Part shown: in pieces, positions 7,161-42,649 of the stretch | Layout: every line of letters starts with the position of its first letter | Numbering within the stretch: the first letter of the stretch is position 1 | Origin: Flavivirga aquimarina | GTDB lineage: Bacteria > Bacteroidota > Bacteroidia > Flavobacteriales > Flavobacteriaceae | Assembly (NCBI RefSeq): GCF_030540835.1 | Contig: NZ_JAUOEK010000150.1 | Location: forward strand, 1 to 59,852 | DNA: 59,852 bases | Direction of reading: 5' to 3' | Position numbers and translations under genes: made by a program | Notes under the pieces: generated by a model | Told to the model about the DNA's origin: nothing | The model's database searches: none | What the model saw: the letters and a program-made list of their open reading frames with translations, nothing else

Positions 7161-10100
7161 ATGAAAGAAAAATTATTTAAAAAGTTACTTTTTTTATCGG
7201 TTTTTATTTTGAGCATATCTATGTATTCTCAAAATATCACTGGTACTATTTCTGACTCTAATGGTCCTTTGCCCGGTGTTAATGTCATCGTAAAAGGAAC
7301 TTCTAATGGGTCTGTAACAGATTTTGATGGAAAATATAGTCTTACTAATGTGGGTTCAGATGCCGTATTAGTTTTTAGCTATGTAGGGTATGAAACACTC
7401 GAAGTAACCGTTGGTGGGAAGTCTATCATCGATGCTGTTCTTGTAGAAGATACTAGTATTTTAAATGAAGTAGTTGTAGTGGGTTACGGAAAAACATCTA
7501 GGCGTTTAGTAACCGGTGCTATTTCTTCAGTAAAATCAGAAGATATTATTAAAACACCAGTAACATCTGCAGAACAAGCTTTGCAAGGACAAGCACCTGG
7601 TGTTACTATAATTAATGGAGGTTCACCGGGTACGGCGCCTCAAGTTCAAATACGTGGTTTGGGAACTTTTGGTAATAGTCAACCATTATATGTAGTAGAT
7701 GGTATCGTTTCTGGAGGAATCAATGAGATCAATCCTAACGATATAGAATCTATTGATGTATTAAAAGATGCATCAACGGCTGCTATTTATGGATCTAGAG
7801 CTTCTAATGGTGTTGTAATTATTACAACTAAAAGAGGTAAGTCTGGAAAAACAAAAGTGACCTTCGATTCCTATTTTGCTACTCAAAGTGTTCCAAAAAC
7901 ATTAGACCTGCTTGATTCTAGTCAATTTAGAGAATATGCAGAGGGAACTTTTGGTTTGCCTGCTAGGTATACTTCAGACGAAGCATCAACTAGACTTAAT
8001 ACAGATTGGCAAGACGAAGTATTTCAGACGGCCTTTACCCATAATACGAACTTAGGTGTTTCGGGAGGAAGTGATTCGGCAGTATTTAATATATCTGCGG
8101 GTTATATTGATCAAGAAGGTATTATCATTAATACAGGCTTTAAAAGATCGTCCTTAAGAGCAAATAGTGAATTTAAGCTCGGAGAGAAATTTAAGATTGG
8201 AGAAACCTTAGCTATTGCAGATTCTCACATGAAAAACGAAGAGGAGAATGGAGATAGAACATTGGTAGAACATATGATCAAGTCATTGCCTTACACGCCT
8301 GTTTATAATGCGGATAATCTAGGTGGTTTTGGAGGAGCAGTACCCACTACAGATAGTAATGCAGATCCAGAAAACCCAGTTAGACTTCAAACCATAAGTA
8401 ATAATACAACTGATATTACCAAAATATTAGGGTCTATATATGCGTCTTATGAGATCTTAAATGGTTTAGAGTATAAGTTTCAATATGGTTTTGAAAGAAC
8501 ATCATTGTCAACAAATATTCACCGACCATCTTTTAATGAGGGCGCAAATTTTCGTACTGCTGCGGAACTCGATCAAAAAGCAAATCTTTTTAATTCGGAT
8601 ACTTACACAAGTTCATTAACATACTCAACTGTTTTTAATGAAGTTCATAATTTAGATTTATTAGCAGTTGTTGAAAAGTTTGAGACTACGGCTCGAAACA
8701 ATCAATCTAAAGCATCAAATCCATTAACAGATGCGGTACCAGTAATTCTAGGTGGTGCAGAGGTTGTTAATCAGTTTTTTGAATATGGTTTAATTTCCTA
8801 CATAGGGAGGGTTAATTATAATTATGATAACAAATATTTGTTATCGGCATCACTTCGTCGTGATGGATCCTCTCGTTTTGGTAAAGGAAATAAATGGGCA
8901 AATTTCCCAGCTGTGTCTTTAGGTTGGGTGCTAAGTGAGGAAGATTTTTTAAAAGATTCTAATTCAATAAGTAATTTAAAACTTAGAGGATCTTGGGGAG
9001 TTACAGGTAACGATGGTTCTGTGGAATATGCCTTTCAATCGGGTGTAATAAGCACATACAGTTATGTAGACTTGGGTAATGCTACAGGGGCTTCTACTTT
9101 TGGCCTTTCGAACCCAGATCTAAAATGGGAAGAAGCGACAATGACCAATATTGGTTTAGATGCAGGTTTTTTAAATAATGCACTTACAGTATCTTTTGAA
9201 TATTATAATAACGATATAGAAGATGTTATTGTACCAATTCCTAATGTCGCATCAGAAGGGTTAGGAGAAGGTTTTACGCAACGTAATGGTGCATCAACAA
9301 ATACCAAAGGGTTTGAGTTTAATGTTGGTTATAACCATAATAAAGGAGGTGATTTTAGTTGGTCTGCTAATTTGAATCTTGGGACATCTAAAAATAAGGC
9401 CGTTAGTCTTAATGACCAGTTGCCTTTTGTAGAAAGTTCTACTTTTGAAGGCCAAAAGTTGTCTAGAATAACAGCAGGTGAATCACTATTTTATTTTTAT
9501 GGACTTCAAACAGATGGTTTATTTCAACAAGGTGACGATACAAGTGCACAACCAAATGCAGCAGCAGGAGATATTCGTTTTATAGACCAAAATGGTGATG
9601 GCGTTATTAATAGTGCAGATAATGTAAAAATAGGAAACCCATTTCCAGAACTCACATATGGTTTAAACTTATCGGCTAATTATAAAAATTTCGATGCGAC
9701 CTTATTCTTTAGTGGCGTAAGTGGAAACGATATTTATAATACAACGCTGTATGATTTAGAAGGGATGACACGTTTGTTTAATGCGGGAACTGCTGTGTTA
9801 AACAGATGGACGCCAACTAATACAAATACAACGATACCTAAGTTTGCAACTCATTCTGATAATGTGGTGAGTTCAGATCGTTATATAGAAGATGGATCTT
9901 ATGCTAAACTTAGAAATTTAACTGTTGGTTATAGTTTGTCAGAGTCAACATTGTCCAGTTTAGCAAATGGAGCTATAACAAAGTTTAGAATATATGCCAC
10001 AGGACAAAACTTATTTACGATAACGGATTATTCTGGTTACGACCCAGAAATTGGTGGAAGTGCTACGGTAAACCCAGATCAACAATCTCCCGCAGCTGGT

Positions 10101-36862: not shown

Positions 36863-38338
36863 ATGATTCCTTATAAAACCATTATTAAAATAGATAGAAC
36901 TAGTAAACAACCTGTTTACATTCAGCTTACCAATCAGTTTATAGATTTAATCAAGGAACGCACCCTTCCGCCGCAGGCAAAATTACCGGGAAGCAGAACC
37001 TTGTCAGATTTAATAGGTCTGCATAGAAAAACGGTGGTAGCTTGTTATGAAGAGCTTGAAATGCAAGGGTGGGTAATAAGTGTTCCAAAAAAAGGAACGT
37101 TTGTACATAAGGACATTCCAATATTACAACAGCAAGAATGGCCAGAAAAACTGCTTGGCAAAAAGGATGATAAGACAGGATTTGCCTTTGAACAAAATCC
37201 TATTTTATGTAGAAATTTTCCACAGCATTATGCTGATGATTATATGTATGTAAACGATGGTGTCCCAGATGAACGGCTAACACCCATTAAAGATTTATCT
37301 ATTATTTATAGAAAAATAGCAAATAAAAAAAGCACATTTGATTATATGAATTATGGAACCACTTATGGAAATCCAGAATTAAGAGAGACTTTGGCAGGGT
37401 ATTTAAACGAAACCAGAGGATTAAATATTACTAAAGATAATATTCTTATAACCAGAGGTAGCCAGATGGGTATGTTCTTGACAGCTCAGTTATTAATTAA
37501 GAATCAAGATTATATTATAGTGGGCGAAACCAATTACAGTTCTGTGAATACCACGTTTGAATTTCCCGGTGCTAAGCTGTTAAAGGTTAAGGTAGATAAA
37601 CACGGATTGGATACTCATGCTATAGAAAAACTTTGTAAAAAGTATGCGGTTAAGGCGGTTTATACAACATCGCATCATCATCACCCTACAACCGTGACGC
37701 TTTGTGCTGAGCGTAGAATGCATCTTTTAAATTTAGCCAAGGCGCATCATTTTGCCATTTTAGAGGATGATTACGATTACGATTTTCATTATAACCATGC
37801 GCCTATTTTGCCTTTGGCGAGCCATGATACTTGTGGGAATGTTATTTATGTAGGTTCGATTTGCAAAACAGTAGCCCCTGTTTTTAGAGTAGGTTATTTA
37901 ATCGCACCAAAACCTTTTGTGAACGAATGCGCTAATTTACGACGTTTTATAGACAGGCAAGGGGATGCTATTTTAGAATTGACCTTTTCCAGCTTTATTA
38001 AAGACGGCAGTTTAGACAGGCATATTAAAAAGGTTGTTAAAATTTATAAAGAGCGTCGGGATTTCTTTTGTAAACTTCTTAAGGAAGAATTAAGCGATTA
38101 TCTCTCTTTTGAAATTCCAAAAGGAGGTATGGCACTTTGGGTAACCCTAAATAAAAACTATTCGTGGGAAACAGTTACTGATATTGCTAAACAACAAAAG
38201 CTAATTATTTCGGAATGGAAACGTTATGATATGACTAATGCGAACCATAATGCTATAAGGGTGGGGTTTGCACGTTATGATGAGACGGAGGCTAAGGAAT
38301 TTGTAAAACGGTTTAAAAAAACGATGCAGGATTATTGA
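36863..38338 (+). CDS. MocR/PdxR-type regulator (GntR HTH fused to aminotransferase)
   Basis: A 491-residue transcription factor. A GntR winged-helix domain (residues about 10-85, with LPGSRTLSDLIGLHRKTVVACYEE split around position 55) is linked to a fold-type I aminotransferase domain. PLP-site motifs are TRGSQMGMFLTAQLL, the EDDYDYDFHY aspartate region, and the Schiff-base lysine in GSICKTVAPVFRVGY. Members use PLP as a sensor ligand to control B6 synthesis or amine catabolism genes. The divergent PPOX-family gene is the likely target. Confidence 0.9.
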   Translation: MIPYKTIIKIDRTSKQPVYIQLTNQFIDLIKERTLPPQAKLPGSRTLSDLIGLHRKTVVACYEELEMQGWVISVPKKGTFVHKDIPILQQQEWPEKLLGKKDDKTGFAFEQNPILCRNFPQHYADDYMYVNDGVPDERLTPIKDLSIIYRKIANKKSTFDYMNYGTTYGNPELRETLAGYLNETRGLNITKDNILITRGSQMGMFLTAQLLIKNQDYIIVGETNYSSVNTTFEFPGAKLLKVKVDKHGLDTHAIEKLCKKYAVKAVYTTSHHHHPTTVTLCAERRMHLLNLAKAHHFAILEDDYDYDFHYNHAPILPLASHDTCGNVIYVGSICKTVAPVFRVGYLIAPKPFVNECANLRRFIDRQGDAILELTFSSFIKDGSLDRHIKKVVKIYKERRDFFCKLLKEELSDYLSFEIPKGGMALWVTLNKNYSWETVTDIAKQQKLIISEWKRYDMTNANHNAIRVGFARYDETEAKEFVKRFKKTMQDY

Positions 38339-38411: not shown

Positions 38412-39644
38412 TTACAGACTATATTGTTCATCTGTGGGGTAATGAGCAGGAGACATTGGTCTTGTTATTCCTCCAGAGTAAGGTTCGTCCCATGTAGCAT
38501 CGCCTTTTGCTACAGCTTTTGCTCTGGTTTGAAACCTTTTTATGATATTAGACGCTCTTCCTCTTCTTCTTTTGGCCTTATCCGACTTAGATTCTTCTTC
38601 TTCTGAATCTGACGACATTTCATCTTCAGCTGGATAAACAACAGAAGCTTTAATGTCAGCTAAATCTAAATCAAACCATTCAGGGACATTGCTGCTACAG
38701 TCATGATAATCAGCTCCACAGGTCTCTCTTTCTGTATAAAGCCAGTGAAAATCTAATTTATCTTTATAACTAGGGCCATATGTACCAAGAATAAAAATGT
38801 ATAATAATTTTTCAGAATGCTTTCCTTCTGAATGTTCACTTGTTCTAAATGTCTTTCCACTAGCTTTCACTGTATAACAGATTGTAGCGATATTTCTACC
38901 TCCCAGGTCTTCTTCTTCTCTCCATTCGCGTGCATCTGCTGAATAATCAGAAGTACCATATGAAACAAGAGTGTTTTTCATTAGTTGAACAGAATCATTC
39001 TCATAGCTTTTCAAACTTAGAATTTTACTTCCCAATTTATTATTTGCCTTTAGTGCTTTATCTCCCATTACATCAGCCTCCTTCTCCAACGCCATATCAT
39101 TATTGATATTTACCTTTCCTTTCAACTGCATGGTAGGTTTAACTCGTCCTTGTTTCTGTTGCACCACATGCCAGGCTTCATGAGGTAAATGTTTTTCCTG
39201 TCCAGAAGCTAAATGTATATCAGTTCCTTGTGCATAAGCATGGGCTTGTAATTGCGTTGGTTTGTTAGAGTTGTAATGGACTTTAACATCATCCATTGAA
39301 TAGCCGGATAGGTTTTCTATTCCTGTTTTTAGATTATTAGGCAAACCCGTATTATTTTCTTTGTTTTGAAAGGTCAGTTGTTGGCTAGAATTATTGTCGG
39401 CCATGGCTTGCAATTGAGCTGTTTGTTTAACTTGTGTGGAGTTATTAGCCATGTCCTGAAAAGATCTCAATTGAGTCGTTTTTGAACTATTATTAGTTGT
39501 CTTTTTTAGTTTCTGTTGAAAAATAGTATTAGTTCGATTGTCAATAAATTGAAAATTAGATACTCTATCTGCTTGTTTTTTAGATGCATCATTTATAATT
39601 GACTTTCTTTTATTTTCTTGTATTTTCTCAGTGTAAGTATTCAT
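38412..39644 (-). CDS. eCIS-core (DUF4157) protein with deaminase-like C-terminal toxin domain
   Basis: A 410-residue probable effector. Residues 1-100 are low-complexity and rich in Gln, Asn and Ser. Residues about 103-163 form the extracellular-contractile-injection-system core domain DUF4157: LPNNLKTGIENLSGYSMDDV, VHYNSNKP, AYAQGTDIHLA, and the HEAWHVVQQ motif (HExxH at 155-159). The C-terminal part (about 224-345) has HSE (276-278) followed by TERETCGADYHDC (Cys309 and Cys316). This HxE plus C-x(n)-C order is that of zinc-dependent nucleic-acid deaminase toxins. An acidic serine run and a basic stretch (KRRRGRASNIIKR) follow. No sheath, baseplate or clear immunity gene is in the window. 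The deaminase assignment is motif-based. Confidence 0.65.
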   Translation of the reverse strand: MNTYTEKIQENKRKSIINDASKKQADRVSNFQFIDNRTNTIFQQKLKKTTNNSSKTTQLRSFQDMANNSTQVKQTAQLQAMADNNSSQQLTFQNKENNTGLPNNLKTGIENLSGYSMDDVKVHYNSNKPTQLQAHAYAQGTDIHLASGQEKHLPHEAWHVVQQKQGRVKPTMQLKGKVNINNDMALEKEADVMGDKALKANNKLGSKILSLKSYENDSVQLMKNTLVSYGTSDYSADAREWREEEDLGGRNIATICYTVKASGKTFRTSEHSEGKHSEKLLYIFILGTYGPSYKDKLDFHWLYTERETCGADYHDCSSNVPEWFDLDLADIKASVVYPAEDEMSSDSEEEESKSDKAKRRRGRASNIIKRFQTRAKAVAKGDATWDEPYSGGITRPMSPAHYPTDEQYSL

Positions 39645-39646
39645 AA

Positions 39647-39680
39647 TTTACTTTTAATGTAAAAAACATTACAAAGTAAA
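39647..39680 (-). promoter_or_regulatory. Hairpin or dyad abutting the start codon of the eCIS-type toxin gene
   Basis: The arms at 39647-39660 and 39666-39680 pair over 14 bp with one bulged base and a 5-base loop. In the mRNA the stem ends two bases before the ATG at 39644, so it would cover the ribosome-binding region. It could equally be a protein-binding dyad. Confidence 0.45.
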
Positions 39681-39715
39681 CTTAGTTTATTTTTCTTACA
39701 AAAACAAATCTTGAT

Positions 39716-39895
39716 CTATTTCCTCACATAAGTCAAAAACGAAAACTCATAGTCATGTTTATCATCTTTAGTATGAAATGTATTGGCTGTTTCTTTCCAA
39801 GCTGTAGTGTCTATTTTGGGAAAGAAAGCGTCGCCTTCAAAATTTTCGTGTACACGAGTTAATTCAATTTTATTGGCTAATATTGTTGTATATAG
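39716..39895 (-). pseudogene. folA 3'-end remnant (second, diverged copy)
   Basis: On the minus strand this segment encodes EGDAFFPKIDTTAWKETANT then FHTKDDKHDYEFSFLTYVRK and a TAG stop. It is a diverged copy of the last 50-60 codons of folA at 41735-41915, whose corresponding phrase is EGDAFFPEIDASVWTETTNV. The aligned offset is exactly 2019 bases for the first 150 or so positions, with roughly 90% identity by eye. Differences are spread as in two functional alleles, not random decay. Homology fades near 39885-39895. It marks the far edge of the toxin-antitoxin insert. Confidence 0.8.
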
Positions 39896-39921
39896 TTTTA
39901 TTCGTGACTTTTAATTTTTCA

Positions 39922-40884
39922 TTAATTTGCAATAGGTGTCGTTTGTCTAAACAATTTATAATTTTTCATTACATTATTTTTGTACATATTCTTGGCATCG
40001 TTAGATAAAAATGACTTGTCAACCATAGCTAATATGTCATTTTCTTTTTTATTAAATGTAGCGATAATTTTCGTGGTAATAGAATCTTTAACTTTCAAAC
40101 GTTTTCCAAATTCGATAAAATCCTCACTCTTATAACTATATTTTTCTCCTAACGGCAAACTAGTCTGTTCAAGTTCTTTAAATAGATTCAATGCCATTAA
40201 ATTATCAGTAAGATGAATTTTTGTATTCATCAAATCGTATGAGGGCGACAACATCATATCACCATCCGCAGTTTCCAGTAGCGAGATGTTTTTTAAATGA
40301 ACATCGCCATTACCAGTAAGGAAGTTGAATATCAGAATACGAAGAAACTCAACTCTATTTAATGGGCTAAGCCATTCCCCAACATCTTGATAGGTCTTCG
40401 AATTATATTTATTTGCTGCTTTAAGAACTGATGCAAAATCTTCCTGATTTAATTTTTCACCATTATCATTATAATCAAAGCGTCTAGTGATATATGCTGG
40501 AGTACCATTGGCAAAGTTCATAAATGCACATTCGGCTATTTTGATGCCAAATAGTTGTTTGGCTATTTGCATTGTTGCATGTTCGTTTGCTGGCGATTGG
40601 TCAGGAATATTAAATCTTGACAGTAAAGGTTTTATGATATACTGAGATTTTTCATCTACATTCATTTTTGGAACTAACTCGATTCCTCTAGGTTTTCCAA
40701 TAAACCCTTTTCGTTGAACTCCTGAGATACTAAATCCCATTGGTTGACCATCAATTCTTTTTGAGATATCTTCCCAATTGAATTTGAGTTGAGGACTGAC
40801 CTTAGAGCGGTCAAATAAAATTGTCTGACAAGATGAACAAAAACCAGTTATATTATCCTTAAGACATCCATTACATTGTGCCAT
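39922..40884 (-). CDS. hipT: HipT/HipA-like Ser/Thr kinase toxin, with zinc ribbon
   Basis: The kinase core of a split HipA. The ATG at 40884 is used; the TTG at 40890 would add two residues. The N-terminus has a CxxC-x8-CxxC zinc ribbon (CNGCLKDNITGFCSSC, from Cys4). The Gly-rich loop is FSISGVQRKG (Ser52 and Ser54, the SIS arrangement of E. coli HipT). The ATP lysine is in YIIKP (Lys85), the catalytic loop is GNGDVHLKN (Asp194, Asn199), and the metal-binding Asp is in PSYDLM (Asp217). The N-terminal HipA lobe is absent and is encoded by the overlapping upstream gene. By family it phosphorylates a translation factor such as an aminoacyl-tRNA synthetase; the target is unknown. Confidence 0.82.
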   Translation of the reverse strand: MAQCNGCLKDNITGFCSSCQTILFDRSKVSPQLKFNWEDISKRIDGQPMGFSISGVQRKGFIGKPRGIELVPKMNVDEKSQYIIKPLLSRFNIPDQSPANEHATMQIAKQLFGIKIAECAFMNFANGTPAYITRRFDYNDNGEKLNQEDFASVLKAANKYNSKTYQDVGEWLSPLNRVEFLRILIFNFLTGNGDVHLKNISLLETADGDMMLSPSYDLMNTKIHLTDNLMALNLFKELEQTSLPLGEKYSYKSEDFIEFGKRLKVKDSITTKIIATFNKKENDILAMVDKSFLSNDAKNMYKNNVMKNYKLFRQTTPIAN

Positions 40885-41215
40885 GTTCAATGTTTTTTAC
40901 TGTTATTGCTCCGATTGTATCATATTGACATGTTAATACTAATAAACTCCAGTCGTCACTTGGGTCAATGCTTAATGCTTTACAAATTTGCTCTCGGTTC
41001 TCGCCTTCACTAAGAATGGATTTGAAGTAGTGAAATAATTCTTTGGAATGATAAGTTTTTTGAGTCTTAGGCATATTAACTGAAATTGGACGTGTGGTAA
41101 CATTTTCAATAAAGGTGTCATCATATTCAAAATGATAGCCATCATTATCAACCCAAAGTTCGCCAGCCTTGGTATTTCCTTTATATATGACATCCAGCTT
41201 GTTTCCTAACTTCAT
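40871..41215 (-). CDS. hipS: HipS-like protein (detached HipA N-terminal domain)
   Basis: A 114-residue protein matching the N-terminal subdomain normally fused to HipA kinases (LDVIYKGNTKAGELWVDNDG, ISVNMPKTQKTY, and LFHYFKSILSEGENREQICK). In the E. coli HipBST system this separate domain acts as the antitoxin that blocks the kinase. Its 3' end overlaps the kinase gene by 14 bases, and it follows the hipB-like gene by 7 bases, so all three are translated from one message. Whether HipS or HipB neutralises this toxin must be tested. Confidence 0.8.
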   Translation of the reverse strand: MKLGNKLDVIYKGNTKAGELWVDNDGYHFEYDDTFIENVTTRPISVNMPKTQKTYHSKELFHYFKSILSEGENREQICKALSIDPSDDWSLLVLTCQYDTIGAITVKNIEHGTM

Positions 41216-41222
41216 ATTTTTA

Positions 41223-41432
41223 TTATTTGCGATTTTTTACTTCCACTTTCATTTCCAAATTGAGATATTCAAAAATATTTTCCAATATTTCAAATGTGGG
41301 ATTTCTAACACCTCTTTCTATTTGGGAAATGGTCGTTTTGGAAATATCAGTAAGTTCGGCTAAGTCCCTAATGGTTAGTCCCAATACCTTCCTTCTATTT
41401 TTTATTCGTTTTCCTAATTCATCTATTTTCAT
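41223..41432 (-). CDS. hipB: HipB-like XRE-family DNA-binding antitoxin
   Basis: A 69-residue protein with one XRE/Cro helix-turn-helix (LAELTDISKTTISQIERGVR, residues about 24-43) and a short C-terminal beta tail (LNLEMKVEVKNRK) of the kind that dimerises HipB proteins. First gene of the operon with the hipS- and hipT-like genes. It should repress its own promoter through the three dyads at 41440-41577. Confidence 0.85.
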   Translation of the reverse strand: MKIDELGKRIKNRRKVLGLTIRDLAELTDISKTTISQIERGVRNPTFEILENIFEYLNLEMKVEVKNRK

Positions 41433-41439
41433 AGCTCTG

Positions 41440-41577
41440 TATCATTATATGGGTAATATGTTATCAAATATACCTATTTTATTTTATAATGTTTAATATT
41501 TACCAATATATTGGTAAATATTAAACAAAACATTGAAACTTTGACATAATTGAAAAATTTGTACCATTATAATGATA
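41440..41577. promoter_or_regulatory. hipB-operon control region: three dyad operators at 61-bp spacing
   Basis: Three related 16-bp dyads occur at 41440-41455 (TACCCATATAATGATA on the minus strand), 41501-41516 (TACCAATATATTGGTA) and 41562-41577 (TACCATTATAATGATA). Each starts exactly 61 bases after the previous one. The middle dyad is the core of a perfect 36-bp palindrome (41491-41526). A -7-like box, TATATTTG on the minus strand (41465-41472), lies between the first two, so the first dyad would cover the transcription start. HipB is the likely binder. Confidence 0.7.
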
Positions 41578-41734
41578 CAAGGGATAATTGTCTCAAAATA
41601 CTCTTCATGGCAACATTATTAATTGTGAATCGTTTACTGCCATCTATAAAAATTGATTACAGAGGATATTTTGTGAGGTGTTTCGAGTGGCAAGTAAATT
41701 ACATACAAAGACACGATGTGAATTAAGTTTTAGA

Positions 41735-42649
41735 TTATTTCCTCACATAAGTCAAAAACGAAAACTCATAGTCATGTTTATCATCTTTAGTATGAAATAC
41801 ATTGGTAGTTTCTGTCCAAACAGATGCATCTATTTCTGGAAAGAAAGCGTCACCTTCAAAATTTTCGTGTACACGAGTTAATTCAATTTTATCAGCTAGC
41901 AATAGTGCTTGTTTGTATATTTCACCACCTCCAATAATATAGGGTTGTGGATCATTTTTAGCAACATTAATGGCATCTTCTAAGCTATTCACTATAATAA
42001 CACCTTCGGGAGCCTGATAATCAGTTTGCCTAGTAATCACAACATGTGTTCTGTTAGGTAAGGGTTTTGGGAAACTTTCAAATGTTTTTCTCCCCATAAT
42101 AATATGATGGCCATTTGTAAGGCTCTTAAATCGCTTTAAATCGTCACTTAAATGCCAGATGAGTTTATTGTCTTTACCAATAGCATCATTCTCTGCTGCG
42201 GCTACTATAATAGTAAGCTCAGATGTTTTTTCTTTTTTGTTTAGAGATTCATTATAGCGTTCACTTTCAGCTATAAGAGGCGCTTCTTTGTGAAGCTCAT
42301 TTTTAAGCTGTTCAATTCTTGTTTTCTGTTGAATTATCAGTTTGTCTAATTGTTTTTTCTCCCAAGATTTCCCCATGAATTTATGAGTGATAAATACATT
42401 GAATACATGGTAAATTAAAAAGAATAACCAGATAAGGATAGCAAACAAAAACCATTCTTTACCTAATAGTTTGAAATCTTTACCTATATTCAAAACAGTA
42501 TTAGCAATAATTATAAATACAGAACCAATTAAAAAAAGAACAAAGTGAACGTATAAACGTTTTTTCTGTTTAATACGCTTTTGAGCATTTTGAATCAATT
42601 CCAATTGCTCTTTGTCTATTTGAGGTTGTTCTTTCTTTTTTCCAAACAT
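41735..42649 (-). CDS. folA: Dihydrofolate reductase fused to N-terminal two-helix membrane domain
   Basis: DHFR reduces dihydrofolate to tetrahydrofolate with NADPH, replenishing the folate used by ThyA, whose gene lies nearby. Residues about 143-304 form a complete DHFR: LTIIVAAAENDAIGKDNKLI, WHLSDDLKRFK, the NADPH motif GRKTFESFPKPLPNRTHVVI, and YIIGGGEIYKQALLLADKIE. Residues 1-130 are a separate 2TM-type region: a basic N-terminus, two membrane helices (about 34-55 and 66-90) and a coiled stretch. Usual DHFRs are about 160 residues without a membrane anchor. The 3' end is repeated at 39716-39895. Confidence 0.9.
   Translation of the reverse strand: MFGKKKEQPQIDKEQLELIQNAQKRIKQKKRLYVHFVLFLIGSVFIIIANTVLNIGKDFKLLGKEWFLFAILIWLFFLIYHVFNVFITHKFMGKSWEKKQLDKLIIQQKTRIEQLKNELHKEAPLIAESERYNESLNKKEKTSELTIIVAAAENDAIGKDNKLIWHLSDDLKRFKSLTNGHHIIMGRKTFESFPKPLPNRTHVVITRQTDYQAPEGVIIVNSLEDAINVAKNDPQPYIIGGGEIYKQALLLADKIELTRVHENFEGDAFFPEIDASVWTETTNVFHTKDDKHDYEFSFLTYVRK

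Follow-up and report, generated by a model that had tools for sequence, protein, structure and literature searches.

Why does the 3' end of folA occur twice on one strand of the Flavivirga aquimarina genome, with a small toxin-antitoxin module between the two copies? The question is raised by a stretch of 59,852 nt, called the window here (assembly GCF_030540835.1, contig NZ_JAUOEK010000150.1). In the direction of folA, the intact gene is followed by a control region of about 300 bp, by genes resembling hipB, hipS and hipT, by a fragment of the folA end, by a short flank and by a gene for an eCIS_core protein. The locus was compared with 11 other Flavivirga genomes (12 in total with its own; G handles denote genomes), and 397 genomes of the family were used for the flank, HipT and folA-end profile searches. 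Locus genes other than folA (thyA, glgB48, PdxR, PPOX, DinB, FAD) are named by likeness. On balance, the arrangement is probably the scar of an import that added genes at a recombination hotspot through homology on one side only, a reading that we hold with some reserve.

The two ends of folA

The features on which the argument depends are as follows.

41735..42649, minus strand: intact folA, 304 aa, with 2TM and DHFR_1 domains (open reading frame; Pfam DHFR_1 2.1e-61, 2TM 2.3e-21)
39716..39889, minus strand: folA 3'-end fragment (copy B) of about 57 codons, closed by a TAG stop (repeat, protein and DNA matches)
41738..41798, minus strand: 61-base identical block in intact folA (ungapped comparison)
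39719..39779, minus strand: 61-base identical block in the fragment (ungapped comparison)
39640..39715, minus strand: folA downstream flank type of relatives, starting AGATCAAGATTTG, adjoining the fragment but not the intact gene (tails of 12 genomes)
41796..42199, minus strand: G006-like tract of intact folA, alignment columns 450-854, borders approximate

An ungapped repeat search of the window gave a single direct repeat of 163 nt, 90% identical (39717-39879 and 41736-41898), which covers about the last 57 codons of the gene. A first-pass annotation, made from the sequence alone, had claimed that the folA end is present twice in the same orientation 2019 bases apart, that only a three-gene Hip-like module and its control region lie between the copies, and that both copies end in TYVRK and a stop. 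All of this was borne out: the repeats share their orientation and start 2019 nt apart, hipT, hipS, hipB and about 300 bp separate them, and the stop after TYVRK is TAA in the intact gene and TAG in the fragment. The fragment, placed by that annotation at 39716-39895, is real, with a 5' border drawn slightly too generously, as clear homology starts near 39889. It corresponds to residues about 248-304 of intact folA (250-304 in one search). Its last 55 codons are free of stops and frameshifts, and therefore the fragment is probably of recent origin.

Is the repeat more than a chance likeness? Its local-alignment score is 270, while the control maxima over 126 folA loci are 71 for an internal folA segment and 53 for the opposite strand. 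The duplication is far beyond chance. We judged an assembly artefact unlikely, since a chimeric join through the 61 identical bases would be expected to drop a copy rather than create a shortened copy joined to hipT.

The last 165 coding bases of the two copies, copy A being the end of intact folA and copy B the fragment, were compared without gaps. There are 19 differences, and all of them fall within the first 104 bases, while the last 61 bases are identical. No identical 3' run longer than 33 occurs in the 55 pairs that the other 11 genomes form, against 61 here, and in a simulation weighted by site variability an identical run of 61 bp had P 0.0002. At one codon of the identical block both copies read GTG (Val), while in each of the other 11 Flavivirga Glu is encoded there; Val at this position of TYVRK is unique in the genus set and common in other genera. 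Over the first 104 bases, copy A has 12 differences from G006 and copy B has 16 from G005, fewer than the 19 between A and B. The copies look like different alleles over 104 bp, where they differ in the way of folA genes from separate species, and homogenised over the last 61 bp. Divergence over 104 bp joined to identity over 61 bp is therefore not what a simple duplication gives. The first-pass annotation had named the finding that would speak for a local duplication, namely an arrangement common to relatives with the two ends mutually closest; instead, the arrangement is not shared by relatives, and over the 104 bp both ends have a closer match in another species than in each other.

Which end came from outside?

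If the two ends are allele-like, which of them is the resident one? The flank type starting AGATCAAGATTTG, which stands behind the fragment, also follows folA in G001, G003, G006, G008 and G009, and less clearly in G002. The flank of the intact copy departs from the folA flanks of relatives after about 15 bp. The flank type is a moderate clue to the resident end.

The intact gene itself is a mosaic. In its first 272 columns the nearest genome is G005 (8.9% different); over columns 450-854 it is G006 (9.4%), ahead of a second genome at 14.4%. At sites separating G005 from G006, intact folA agrees with the two in the ratio 17:7 in columns 150-300, 5:18 in columns 600-750 and 5:16 in columns 750-854. 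The ratio for the fragment is 12:7 in columns 750-854; the G006-like tract is present in the intact gene and not in the fragment. Seen from G006, the F. aquimarina genome is nearest only in folA 450-854; in nine other stretches the nearest is G001 or G008 (seven stretches), G002 (thyA) or G003 (folA 272-450). An exchange of folA sequence between this lineage and that of G006, in either direction, is likely from these comparisons. The left border of the tract is uncertain, with the maximum chi-square break at column 272 and the change of nearest relative near column 450. The tract begins left of the border of the fragment, which fits a homologous anchor in folA. The suggestion of the first-pass annotation that an incoming folA allele recombined is supported as far as an exchange of a folA allele goes.

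The simplest account is that the 3' half of the intact gene arrived together with its flank and hipBST, and that the fragment is the resident end left behind. DNA of another Flavivirga-like cell would have entered, carrying its own folA 3' half, its own flank and the hipBST module. On the left side it would have recombined inside the resident folA, around codons 90-160, so that the working gene obtained the 3' end of the donor. The right end, just past hipT, would have joined the resident folA about 57 codons before its stop without extensive homology, a process known as homology-facilitated illegitimate recombination. This would have left the resident 3' end stranded behind the module together with its flank and the eCIS_core gene, and gene conversion between the two ends, or a crossover there, would have made the last 61 bp identical. 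No integrase would be needed. The direction of transfer, the order of these steps and the route by which the DNA entered belong to this reconstruction.

Several observations weigh against an import of this kind. The flank type of the fragment is absent or unclear in 6 of the 11 relatives, so its lack behind the intact gene is not unusual. The maximum chi-square permutation gave p = 0.002 for a pair, G005 and G006, that was picked after the nearest relatives had been seen, and G006 could equally have received the G006-like tract from this lineage. Likeness to G006 does not extend to the last 61 bp, and therefore a separate conversion step must be assumed. A tree of the short folA ends has no supported branch. 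A donor was sought in the family set with the flank 41430-41738; 24 genomes besides its own gave short matches only, the best with E 4.4e-7 over 40 bp, which were judged to be chance in AT-rich sequence, and there is no convincing donor. The closest HipT found in the family set, 66% identical, is on a short contig whose 3.2 kb stretch is without folA. A clear scar is seen in only 1 of the 12 Flavivirga. Finally, over all 165 bp the nearest relative of the fragment is the intact copy (19 differences; next G005, 24).

This last point favours a tandem duplication in which the resident folA end was copied locally, independently of the gain of hipBST, and then decayed. Against it, every difference falls within the first 104 bp while the last 61 bp hold none (P 0.0002), and in those 104 bp each copy is closer to another species; the frame of the fragment is open over 55 codons, and a duplication leaves the different flanks unexplained. 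We consider such a duplication highly improbable. Might the order of arrival have been the reverse? The folA gene with hipBST may already have been resident when donor DNA with a second folA 3' end, followed by its flank and the eCIS_core gene, became attached behind hipT, with recombination on its right side in or near pdxR. The anatomy would be the same, a donor is easy to imagine as the flank type is found in 5 of the 11 relatives, and all 12 genomes keep the pdxR side. This order gives by itself no reason, however, why the G006-like tract lies in the intact gene rather than in the fragment, and the 61-bp identity again requires conversion; we think it rather unlikely, though to be taken seriously.

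The tract also bears on a Campbell-type single crossover, in which a circle with one folA end and hipBST would have integrated within the identical 61-bp block, the flanks being swapped. A long identical block is the expected site of such an event, the flanks of the intact copy and the fragment do differ, and a pop-out between the repeats would give just such a circle. But the G006-like sequence left of the 5' border of the fragment (columns 450 to about 744) is unaccounted for, and no viral contig or plasmid record with a close HipT was found (4 pattern matches in viral contigs, none confirmed; 7 plasmid records, all below 60% identity). This explanation seems to us unlikely. Displaced gene 3' ends are typical of integrase-mediated insertion, and the first-pass annotation had proposed an element that integrated into folA and restored the gene. 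An integrase since lost, with a replacement end borne by the element, would suit the 40-bp identical stretch near the start of the fragment (positions 10-49 of 165). The border itself, however, holds no identical core, with 5 differences in the first 10 positions, and none of the other 11 Flavivirga has a clear second folA end (a stretch in G008 is doubtful). A search for tRNA in the window gave none, and the statement of that annotation that no integrase is present stood, as no integrase or transposase family was found in 32 proteins scanned (27 cargo, 5 window; some short open reading frames of the intervals were left out). An integrase island has an identical att core at both borders and an integrase, which were not found at this locus. 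Insertion of this kind is very unlikely, and the one-sided import with a putative homologous anchor in folA is preferred to all four.

The folA-pdxR interval and other folA loci

Is folA a site where genes are gained repeatedly? Two genes beyond the fragment are needed to describe the interval.

38412..39644, minus strand: eCIS_core (DUF4157-type) protein gene, cargo beyond the fragment (Pfam eCIS_core 8.2e-10)
36863..38338, plus strand: PdxR/MocR-like regulator gene, which bounds the variable interval on the right and is conserved (by likeness; beyond the interval in 12 of 12 genomes)

The PdxR-like gene thus lies past the eCIS_core gene on the opposite strand. The order thyA, glgB48-like, folA, PdxR, PPOX, DinB, FAD is kept in 12 of 12 Flavivirga. 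In all 12 the gap between folA and PdxR is 1413-6860 bp, while the other gaps are 285-344 bp (glgB48-folA), 29-272 bp (PdxR-PPOX) and at most 31 bp (PPOX-DinB); the gap exceeds 500 bp between DinB and FAD in 2 of 12 genomes and between thyA and glgB48 in 5 of 12. The cargo is different in nearly every genome (at the DNA level with E<=1e-5, at the protein level by Pfam only). G001 and G008 have the whole interval in common (96.8% over 1578 bp), G002 and G005 share about 614 bp and each also holds a cNMP-binding regulator, and the remaining matches are of 39-106 bp near the ends. In wider relatives empty sites are found, with PdxR 27-28 bp after folA (L056, L059) or the FAD gene after 30-41 bp (L062, L063). 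The folA-pdxR gap is a real hotspot in the genus. As folA and PdxR converge, insertions between them presumably need break no promoter.

The first-pass annotation had proposed the folA 3' end as a hotspot for small defence or toxin modules. A hotspot of gene turnover it is; the specificity is supported only in part, since toxin- or defence-like cargo is found in 4 of 12 genomes only, as 3 different cargos of which one, with a PIN match, is under the cut-off (Pfam and PADLOC). It had also expected relatives with a single folA end followed by the DUF4157 gene or by other cargo. Relatives with one end and other cargo were found in 11 of 11 cases, and none has a gene of DUF4157 type in its folA region. 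The cargo elsewhere includes GH97 and GH53 glycosidases, regulators of AraC, HxlR, cNMP-binding and ArsR type, and members of SDR, AHSA1, DJ-1, DNA_alkylation, glyoxalase, lumazine-binding and other families.

Next to folA in G008 (L051 7058-8309) and in G001 (L128 7062-8313) there is a PIN-like pair, a 259-aa protein without a family match and a 162-aa protein with PIN at E 0.0043 (the G008 copy was scanned), which is a possible unnamed toxin-antitoxin pair. A transfer of this pair between these two sister species was considered, and shared descent is preferred: their folA genes are alike at 88-100% per 50-bp window, though the cargo is somewhat more alike than folA. In G009 a candidate defence gene, PDC-S28 (1082 bits), stands directly after folA (L137 3968-6574). 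The eCIS_core protein of the window has the look of a secreted effector, with a weak deaminase-like match at its C-terminus (XOO_2897-deam, 18.4 bits, under the cut-off of 27), and no adjoining partner gene was noticed. DHFR and the N-terminal 2TM membrane domain, fused here, match separate neighbouring frames in some relatives (e.g. G018, G012, G029).

Does a second folA end remain at other loci? With the whole folA protein, 58 of 60 genomes were matched, and an extra match of the DHFR end was seen only in the F. aquimarina genome, which is among the 60. With folA DNA against the 12 genus genomes, the other extra matches are only of 30 bp (G005) and 61 bp (G008). A scan for relics downstream of folA covered 126 distinct loci with at least 1 kb of downstream sequence (18 of 144 were left out, 15 as duplicates and 3 as too short); the window scored 270, L099 scored 113, and the best of the rest 61. 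L099 is a contig of a metagenome-assembled genome from another Flavobacteriaceae lineage. Its folA is 65% identical and is followed by one open reading frame of 598 aa and then by a decayed relic (9687-9896) in the same orientation, in which 144 of 217 columns are identical. The relic scores 127, where none of 200 shuffles scored above 56, and it lacks the final 65 bp of folA. The architecture appears to have arisen at least twice at folA (2 of 126 loci). Protein-level profiles of the folA end matched 388 of the 397 family genomes, 6 of them twice; these profiles would miss decayed relics of the L099 kind. Apart from the F. aquimarina genome, these are G088, G122, G241, G348 and G362, whose second matches are weak, lie on a different contig or at a distance of 98 kb, and were not counted.

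The 61-bp stretch of G008 lies beyond DinB, about 4.4 kb from folA (L051 11368-11427). In some scans it stood out (E 3.1e-4, E 0.002, E 2.0e-6, and a score of 43 against 30 in 20 shuffles), while in others it had little or no excess (56 against 53 in 200 shuffles; 54 against control maxima of 71 and 53). As the statistics disagree, it is doubtful as a relic and was not counted as a case.

How does the locus compare with known systems? PMC5635113 (2017) describes hotspots that lack mobile elements and whose flanking core genes recombine. The folA-pdxR interval is like them in its conserved core borders, its different cargo in most genomes, its lack of a recognisable mobile element and a flanking core gene, the folA of this genome, that is mosaic. 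It differs in that a clean double crossover leaves no repeat, while here a gene end is duplicated on one side. Homology-facilitated illegitimate additive insertion has been proposed for effector-immunity arrays of the type VI secretion system of V. cholerae, as set out in PMC5361080; as in those arrays, our reading has a putative homologous anchor on one side, a putative illegitimate join on the other and a displaced older end behind the new module. The retained piece here is, however, a fragment of a housekeeping gene and not an immunity gene, and the illegitimate join at our locus is one that we infer. Insertion of restriction-modification genes can be accompanied by a long target duplication, of the order of 100 bp (Nobusato 2000 and Furuta 2010, as related in PMC3874152 and PMC3031569). 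A small selfish-type module, long direct repeats and the lack of a transposase are common to both cases. Here the copies are allele-like over 104 bp and their flanks differ, so they are not plain copies of the same target. A narrow literature search found no published description of folA as an insertion site of this kind.

The hotspot type is already known, and what is rare is a well-preserved scar at folA. Refilling of a hotspot without mobile elements normally leaves no trace, while this scar can be read, and it suggests the recombination point, the join point and the displaced part of a foreign piece. As a natural system, the Flavivirga folA-pdxR interval would lend itself well to measurements of the arrival of toxin-antitoxin and defence genes through recombination of adjacent core genes. 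From the repeats one can also predict a route of loss for the module that could be measured, so that addiction to hipBST could be tested directly. A bolder idea, to which we give little credence, is that the folA end serves as a portable homology handle, hipBST popping out between the two ends as a circle and re-entering relatives at folA. The folA gene would then stay intact each time and the toxin would penalise cells losing the module; it would be a mobile toxin-antitoxin cassette free of integrase with the 3' end of a core gene as attachment site, and the L099 relic would represent an earlier case of this architecture, with different cargo.

The hipBST module

What, then, is the module between the two ends?

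41433..41734, minus strand: control region from folA to hipB; after the first ~15 bp it does not resemble any folA flank in the other 11 Flavivirga
41490..41527, no strand: perfect 38-bp palindrome with TACC-N8-GGTA at its centre (read in the sequence)
41223..41432, minus strand: hipB-like HTH gene, 69 aa (Pfam HTH_3 5.6e-15; NCBIfam couple_hipB 50.2 bits, under the cut-off of 71.65)
40871..41215, minus strand: hipS-like gene, 114 aa (Pfam Couple_hipA 2.4e-20; HipS(Lp) chain 7vkb_B, E 6.1e-7)
39922..40890, minus strand: hipT-like kinase gene, 322 aa from TTG, with an ATG at 40884 (Pfam HipA_C 1.3e-35; HipT(Lp) 8ezr_B, E 9.8e-20)

HipBST toxin-antitoxin modules are described in PMC10627512 and PMC8262856. 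As in those modules, the order is hipB-hipS-hipT, on one strand, with a gap of 7 bp and an overlap of 20 bp counted from the TTG start; the kinase is without N-subdomain 1, and the Couple_hipA match is in HipS only and the HipA_C match in HipT only (Pfam). The top solved-structure matches of HipS and HipT are the Legionella HipS and HipT. The motifs FSISGVQRKG, GNGDVHLKN and SPSYDLMNT can be read in the HipT translation, aligned to 8ezr_B, and the last two we take by eye to be kinase motifs. S-I-S in the Gly-rich loop is the S-aliphatic-S feature, as PMC10627512 defines it. The three genes show the sequence features of HipBST; the activity that belongs to such modules, a toxic HipT with TrpS as its target and HipS neutralising it, is predicted here. 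The module differs from those described in being a member from Flavobacteriaceae, known from its sequence, with a HipT 66% identical to one family relative (a genome 64% complete) and 34-42% identical to the others listed among the 397 genomes.

The control region holds a 142-bp imperfect inverted repeat (41438-41579) upstream of hipB, which encloses the 38-bp palindrome, and folding of 41433-41600 gives z -5.45. Both the palindrome and the inverted repeat are likely operators, the palindrome probably for HipB. TACC-N8-GGTA is reminiscent of the half-site spacing of hip operators. A promoter and terminator scan was uninformative, with 15 promoter-like sites against 13.5 expected, as was base composition.

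HipT matches at E<=0.001 are found in 8 of the 12 Flavivirga genomes, its own included; besides the gene of the window, none of them exceeds 40% identity and none is at folA. In its own genome there is a second HipT-like kinase at another locus (G000:C99:13733-14665), 40% identical to the one between the two folA ends.

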